This document shows, in pieces, positions 6,309 to 6,763 of a stretch of 11,212 nt of DNA. The stretch's first letter is position 1; each line of letters begins with the position of its first letter. This DNA comes from a bacterium (lineage in GTDB: Bacteria > Thermosulfidibacterota > Thermosulfidibacteria > Thermosulfidibacterales > JALWSI01): positions 1-11,212 of the forward strand of contig JALWSI010000229.1 of NCBI GenBank assembly GCA_027080315.1. Reading direction: 5' to 3'. The translations under genes and the position numbers were made by a program. Under the pieces are notes generated by a model. The model saw nothing but the letters and a program-made list of their open reading frames with translations, was not told the origin of the DNA and did no database searches.

Positions 6309-6334
6309 AAAGGCCCCGCTTAAGCGGGGCCTTT
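6309..6334. terminator. Bidirectional rho-independent terminator between cobD-like gene and csp
   Basis: A 26-base perfect palindrome begins 9 bases after the cobD-like stop and ends 17 bases before the csp stop. Its stem is AAAGGCCCCGC with loop TTAA, or a full self-complementary arm of 13. The plus side is followed by TTTGCTCTTTT, and on the minus strand the palindrome is followed by a run of T (complement of AACAAAAA). It can stop both converging transcripts. Confidence 0.93.
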
Positions 6335-6555: not shown

Positions 6556-6728
6556 ACTACTAACTTCCTCCAATTTCTCTCTCATCCTTAGATGAGTCTA
6601 ATACTCCCCTCTTTACTGCTCCAGAACCTCCGGGGATTGTAGGCTCCGAACTCGGCCTTGCGGTGCAGCGCCTTCTACCTCCTCCTTTCTCCAGCGCTGC
6701 TGTCTAACTGGTCTGACCGTCCTTCCGA
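6556..6728 (-). promoter_or_regulatory. Structured 5' leader of the cold-shock gene
   Basis: If transcription starts about 6-7 bases past the -10 hexamer, the csp mRNA carries a leader of about 170 bases. It holds a 7-bp hairpin GCAGCGC/GCGCTGC (arms at 6694-6700 and 6665-6671) whose 22-base loop exposes AGGAGGAGG (6678-6686, minus strand). Near the gene, two hairpins share bases and exclude each other: TTAGA-CTCA-TCTAA (6588-6601) and CTCATC-TAAG-GATGAG (6581-6596). These lie 10 bases upstream of the csp ribosome site. Long structured leaders control cspA translation by temperature in E. coli; a similar role here is an inference. No known riboswitch class was recognised. Confidence 0.55.
6588..6668 (-). 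other. Possible leader peptide frame in the csp 5' region, non-standard start
   Basis: Between an in-frame TAG (6675-6677) and TAA (6588-6590) lies an open frame that, read from CTG 6668, encodes 26 residues: it begins LHRKAEFGAYNPRRFW and ends in SIRLI. AGGAGG lies 9 bases before the CTG, an ideal spacing, but no ATG, GTG or TTG is present. The TAA is followed by GG and then ATG 6585, which is in frame with csp. This arrangement would suit coupled translation. The alternative is that the conserved part is an RNA structure and the frame is chance. The peptide is not one I recognise. Confidence 0.25.
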
Positions 6729-6734
6729 TTCTGA

Positions 6735-6763
6735 AAGGTATGCCTGAGATGACGGGTTGTCAA
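6735..6763 (-). promoter_or_regulatory. Sigma-70-type promoter of the cold-shock gene
   Basis: On the minus strand a perfect -35 hexamer TTGACA (6758-6763) is followed by a 17-base spacer and a -10 candidate TACCTT (6735-6740). The -10 is weak (3 of 6 consensus bases), but the -35, the spacing and the A/T block directly upstream make this the best promoter in the window. Transcription would start near 6728. Confidence 0.6.

Follow-up and report, generated by a model that had tools for sequence, protein, structure and literature searches.

Cold-shock mRNAs of the Escherichia coli cspA type carry a long 5' leader. Ribosome standby sites, which also lie in leaders, are generally unstructured, have no strong Shine–Dalgarno (SD) complementarity, and are found close to a structured ribosome-binding site (RBS). 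In the hbs mRNA of Bacillus subtilis, a 5' ribosome site is reportedly paired with a 3' complement. A 5'/3'-UTR interaction in hbs is named in the title of Braun et al. (2017), cited in PMC7509114, and in Staphylococcus aureus icaR, the 5' ribosome site pairs with its 3' complement (PMC3868564). Leader ribosome sites have also been linked to mRNA decay: an RBS in the leader of one E. coli mRNA has been reported to shield that mRNA from RNase E, an enzyme against which such protection becomes weaker at a distance (PMC3997798). Stand-alone SDs that bind the 30S subunit and protect mRNA are represented by the STAB-SD of Bacillus thuringiensis cry3A (Agaisse and Lereclus 1996; PMC4113751), an SD-like sequence near −129 that starts no translation, can pair with 16S rRNA, and stops RNase J1.

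We analyzed a csp leader from the bacterial order Thermosulfidibacterales. The window, i.e., the whole stretch of DNA analyzed (11,212 nt; contig JALWSI010000229.1, assembly GCA_027080315.1), carries csp on its minus strand (Table 1). The leader contains a ribosome site, GAGAAAGGAGG, at 6691–6681 of that strand, approximately 110 nt upstream of the csp RBS. As the start of csp, ATG 6555 with its GGAGG is likelier than the in-frame ATG 6585. Transcription is expected to begin at approximately 6730–6726, as placed from the promoter-like hexamers; the TTGACA–17–TACCTT arrangement at 6763–6735 points to a start at about 6730, which would put the SD element near +40. This hexamer pair was not listed in a sigma-70 pattern scan whose rule was at least 9 of 12 matches, with at least 4 of 6 per hexamer; a TTGAC-type hexamer occupies the matching place in the 11 homologous csp leaders described below. 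Rfam covariance models at their gathering scores had no match in the window, and relaxed thresholds in the leader region returned chance-level matches only, belonging to no family.

Table 1. Features of the csp locus in the window, listed in the direction of csp transcription
Feature	Position	Strand	Basis
TTGACA, −35-like hexamer of the csp promoter	6758..6763	−	sequence; spacer to TACCTT of 17 nt
TACCTT, −10-like hexamer	6735..6740	−	sequence
Hairpin 5' arm, GCAGCGCT	6693..6700	−	folding; the second csp leader has a hairpin homologous to it
Stand-alone extended SD, GAGAAAGGAGGAGG, in the hairpin loop	6678..6691	−	complementary to the 16S rRNA 3' tail
Hairpin 3' arm, GGCGCTGC	6665..6672	−	folding
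26-codon frame opened by CTG, stop included; probably not a gene	6588..6668	−	frame comparison
GGAGG, own RBS of csp	6567..6571	−	sequence; 11 nt 5' of ATG 6555
csp, cold-shock domain protein, 67 aa	6352..6555	−	PF00313, E = 9e-31
Intrinsic terminator 3' of csp, common to the convergent aminotransferase gene	6309..6334	−	11-bp stem and U-run

The comparison set comprised nine genomes of the order, which belong to the window's own family (f1) and two sister families (f2 and f3). The core of the site, GAGAAAGGAG, was unchanged in 11 csp leaders across the nine genomes and three families, lying 93–140 nt before the ATG; these 11 core-bearing genes include at least one per genome as well as the second csp of the window genome. 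The csp proteins of the order are 58–88% identical to that of the window, and the 10-mer is invariant across families whose csp proteins share approximately 60% identity. Promoter-like hexamers place the core near +40 in f1 and near +10 in f2 and f3. All five csp genes without the core were second members of tandem pairs, located directly after the first csp. Of 80 csp leaders from other phyla, only 2 proved to contain a related string, indicating that the core is a feature of this lineage and not of csp in general. The 1.84-Mb window genome contains GAGAAAGGAG 33 times on both strands (roughly once per 110 kb on each strand), and judged against this count, its occurrences in csp leaders confirm that the core is more than chance. 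The preliminary description had looked to homologous leaders for a kept frame or hairpin; the frame was not kept, nor was the hairpin outside the window genome, whereas the SD core was kept. Separately, a further csp copy with the same leader element lies at a contig edge in G008 (L164 / L024, G008:C14). Two other MAGs (L092 and L119) have AGAAAGGAGG approximately 48 nt before the csp ATG (within 160 nt upstream), and the hairpin-like stretch between their SD and ATG, changed in sequence but paired, is perhaps a structured SD-to-start spacer.

We investigated whether the element matches the 3' end of 16S rRNA. AGAAAGGAGG is complementary to ACCUCCUUUCU, the 3' tail of standard 16S rRNA; the tail was assumed to be standard because the lineage's own 16S 3' end is absent from the assemblies. 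With this assumed tail, the predicted duplex of the window element has an energy of −17.9 kcal/mol (p = 0.027 versus dinucleotide shuffles). The csp leaders pooled gave a combined p of approximately 9e-4, uncorrected for their relatedness, and reversed-tail controls for these leaders gave p values of 0.08–0.72 (n = 11). In f2 and f3, pairing of the csp element is limited to about 9 nt of the tail, with energies of −13.5 to −13.8 kcal/mol. Taken singly, these leaders were not better than shuffles, except for one f2 leader.

When the window genome was searched for the core, a longer form, (A)GAAAGGAGGTGGT, was found standing alone in the leaders of satP (a Gpr1/Fun34/YaaH transporter) and of type IV pilin, OprB porin, multihaem cytochrome, and lipoprotein genes, each of which has its own RBS further downstream. 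The element precedes the gene by 57–182 nt in satP and the pilin, porin, and cytochrome genes, and the lipoprotein leader has two copies, approximately 240 and 350 nt before the gene. Six of the eight AAAGGAGGTGGT sites in the window genome are stand-alone leader sites, and in f2 the element also precedes satP and at least two pilin genes. In all eight satP orthologues with leader sequence, from f1, f2, and f3 (L338, L340–L345, and L348), the element is retained at the equivalent position 3' of TTGACA; its sequence drifts (AAAGGAGGTGGT, AAAGGGGGTGAT, AAGGGGGGTGA, and AAGGAGGTGGT), but the 16S pairing stays. Each satP leader was better than dinucleotide shuffles (p = 0.003–0.020, values that are not independent because the leaders are related by descent), whereas the reversed tail gave p ≥ 0.25, apart from one leader at 0.03. 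In the leader of the predicted lipoprotein gene (L243:2063–2074 and 2173–2184), the two AAAGGAGGTGGT copies are 110 nt apart, the first directly after a TTGACA promoter-like site. A string common to the csp and lipoprotein leaders, GGAGCYTACAAT, was found in those two only among the stretches compared and was left as chance.

In an unbiased sample (642 kb of contigs, picked regardless of pattern), one long match was found in 229 upstream regions. Upstream 16S-complementary sites showed no k-mer surplus over controls in these 229 regions, and 16S duplex energies in 285 regions were no better than those with shuffled tails. We thus rejected a general surplus of stand-alone SDs, and the element appears to be limited to a small set of genes. 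The best site in the 642-kb sample was the porin leader, and further good sites lie upstream of genes whose proteins have signal-peptide-like N-termini. From the nature of the element-bearing genes, their products are probably abundant. The suggestion that the leader holds a ribosome site, standby or similar, is supported, as the SD core is invariant in the order and part of a stand-alone SD set.

We lean towards reading the csp-leader element as a stand-alone 30S docking site, akin to a STAB-SD or a standby site. The exposed GAGAAAGGAGG(AGG) would pair with the 16S rRNA 3' tail and dock a 30S subunit, starting no conserved peptide. Most likely, the docked subunit would protect the 5' portion of the transcript against 5'-end-dependent decay by RNase E/G or RNase Y, and/or it would be kept near the csp RBS approximately 110 nt downstream. 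A small hairpin would present the site in its loop in the window genome, and in the sister families, a complement just 3' of csp could, through 5'/3' pairing, mask the site and thereby make it switchable. As with 30S binding and the ensuing stabilization or standby loading, a part in cold regulation is something we infer from sequence. Full-length RNase J (TIGR00649) scored above the cut-off in f2 only, with no full-length match in the window genome (94% complete; G000) or in three f3 genomes. RNase Y is encoded in all genomes and RNase E/G in most, and the window genome encodes both. Hence, without full-length RNase J here, a stabilizing element would act against RNase E/G or RNase Y, or the element would load 30S subunits for csp.

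The preliminary description had placed AGGAGGAGG in the loop of a 7-bp GCAGCGC hairpin, and both the sequence and its folding bear this out. GCAGCGC (6700–6694) pairs with GCGCTGC (6671–6665), with a closing U-G as the eighth pair of the stem, and the loop is GGAGAAAGGAGGAGGTAGAA, so AGGAGGAGG (6686–6678) is exposed. The isolated 45-nt hairpin has a predicted energy of −14.1 kcal/mol (z = −2.2; 7 of 200 shuffles were as good) and is present in both the MFE and centroid structures of the 191-nt leader, the overall folding of which is no better than that of shuffles (z = −0.48). The second csp of the window genome has the core in the loop of a 16-bp hairpin, which compared with the window hairpin shows one compensatory change (C-G to G-C) and one change from G-C to G-U. 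When the f2 and f3 csp leaders were folded, the core did not lie in a stable hairpin, and an order-wide hairpin was therefore rejected. The alternative that the leader is an RNA structure thus holds in part, for the two csp leaders of the window genome, but not for the sister families, which keep the core without the hairpin; this distribution suggests that the hairpin is a local presentation of the core.

Another explanation, which we consider unlikely, would be that a leader ORF is translated from a non-AUG codon (CTG in the window, TTG in relatives) and is coupled to csp or senses ribosome state. The frame itself, which may have arisen by chance, is as first described: CTG at 6668–6666 stands exactly 9 nt after AGGAGG (6683–6678) and opens 26 codons, which end at TAA 6590–6588, 2 nt before the ATG 6585 that is in frame with csp. 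Similarly, the f2 and f3 leaders have TTG (eight leaders) or CTG (one) 5–6 nt after the AGGAG core, a spacing at which non-AUG initiation may occur, and in 7 of these 9 leaders the frame is open to a stop overlapping or abutting the csp ATG. However, the csp ATGA itself supplies the TGA stop in one frame, and the frames of two relatives (G007 and G003) are broken by stops after 7 and 17 codons, respectively. In the f1 paralogue, i.e., the leader of the second csp, no start codon was found at a usable SD spacing; its first TTG lies 16 nt past the core, and no stop in frame precedes csp. The intact f2 frames, compared in small numbers, differ exclusively by amino-acid-changing substitutions at codon positions 1 and 2, with none at position 3, whereas 17 of the 19 differences in csp between the same two f2 genomes are at position 3. 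The peptides of the three families have no resemblance beyond HRK in f1 and f2. A leader peptide in the window was accordingly set aside as improbable on its frame, start, and substitution pattern, and nothing in the substitutions appears to point to a protected peptide.

CsrA binds GGA in hairpin loops. A reading in which CsrA, or another GGA-reading protein, binds the GGA motifs of the loop and controls csp mRNA is live, albeit distinctly unlikely. The window genome encodes CsrA (tblastn, E = 7e-15; PF02599), and the loop of the window hairpin contains several GGA. On the other hand, conservation tracks the 16S complement past GGA, as the long form has AGAAA before and GUGGU after it, and the f2 and f3 leaders are without the hairpin, so that a GGA hairpin is present in f1 only. 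In satP, moreover, the core GGAGG has become GGGGG with G-U pairing to the 16S tail kept, though other GGA are nearby.

In the sister families, the element has a counterpart on the other side of csp. CTCCTTTCTCCC occurs 29–64 nt after csp in all eight f2 and f3 loci with a sequenced 3' side (L027, L028, L031, L023, L035, L036, L037, and L038); it mimics the 3' tail of 16S rRNA and is complementary to the leader core over 12–16 nt, with predicted duplex energies of −24.7 to −32.3 kcal/mol. Such a sequence is rare 3' of genes, with CTCCTTTCT found within 120 nt past the stop in 1 of 321 genes (G001 sample). This suggests 5'/3' pairing in f2 and f3, where the mimic may mask the leader site or, alternatively, act on other mRNAs. 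The pairing between leader and 3' complement could even be the function of the element, its likeness to a ribosome site being secondary; this has precedents in icaR (PMC3868564) and hbs (Braun et al. 2017), but we regard it as highly unlikely, because neither f1 csp locus has a 3' partner and a consistent one is lacking for the satP and pilin leaders. For the window element, no 3' partner was found, and the best internal complement is interrupted (−15.2 kcal/mol). Lastly, chance, or a promoter-proximal DNA feature in place of an RNA feature, is hardly credible: purine-rich leaders are common in the window genome and global 16S-tail duplex energies are no better than those of shuffled tails, but the 10-mer is invariant despite the divergence of csp, and its distance from the promoter varies between families.

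Returning to the docking site, we tentatively extend this reading, with considerable doubt, to the order as a whole. Stand-alone extended SDs would form a leader module shared by csp and by envelope and energy genes with abundant products; this module would work against RNase E/G or RNase Y where there is no RNase J, and the 16S-tail mimic in sister-family csp mRNA would let ribosome availability, e.g., after cold shock, set mRNA stability. Stand-alone SD stabilizers have been worked out in Bacillus and are explained there by RNase J. If the proposal is true, 30S docking on leaders would be a more general way of protecting or priming important transcripts, even without full-length RNase J, and cold-shock mRNA would be tied to free 30S subunits. 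The mimic located 3' of csp in the sister families would make a directly testable switch.

Among the known systems, E. coli cspA-type mRNA shares with the window a long 5' leader on csp (see PMC9947658). hbs and icaR resemble the csp mRNAs of f2 and f3 in the 5'/3' pairing predicted for the latter, but the SD involved in hbs and icaR is the gene's own RBS, whereas that of f2 and f3 is separate and upstream, and the window lacks the partner. With standby sites, the window site has in common possible 30S docking upstream of the real RBS, although it is an extended SD located approximately 110 nt away. The closest precedent for the window element is the cry3A STAB-SD. A STAB-SD is situated near the native or processed 5' end of its mRNA, and the promoter-like hexamers would put the element near +40 in the window and near +10 in f2 and f3. 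The element differs from cry3A in its uncultured lineage, in its association with csp and envelope genes, in the hairpin loop of two csp leaders, and in that its stabilizing role is putative. Blocking of RNase J does not carry over to a genome without full-length RNase J, and as for the absence of a translation start, the frame here is unconserved, yet CTG stands at 9 nt in the window and TTG or CTG at 5–6 nt in f2 and f3. Common to both is an SD-like site in the leader with complementarity to the 16S 3' end (assuming, for the window, a standard tail), and, as in cry3A, this SD lies in the 5'-UTR, a long way before the RBS of the gene itself.
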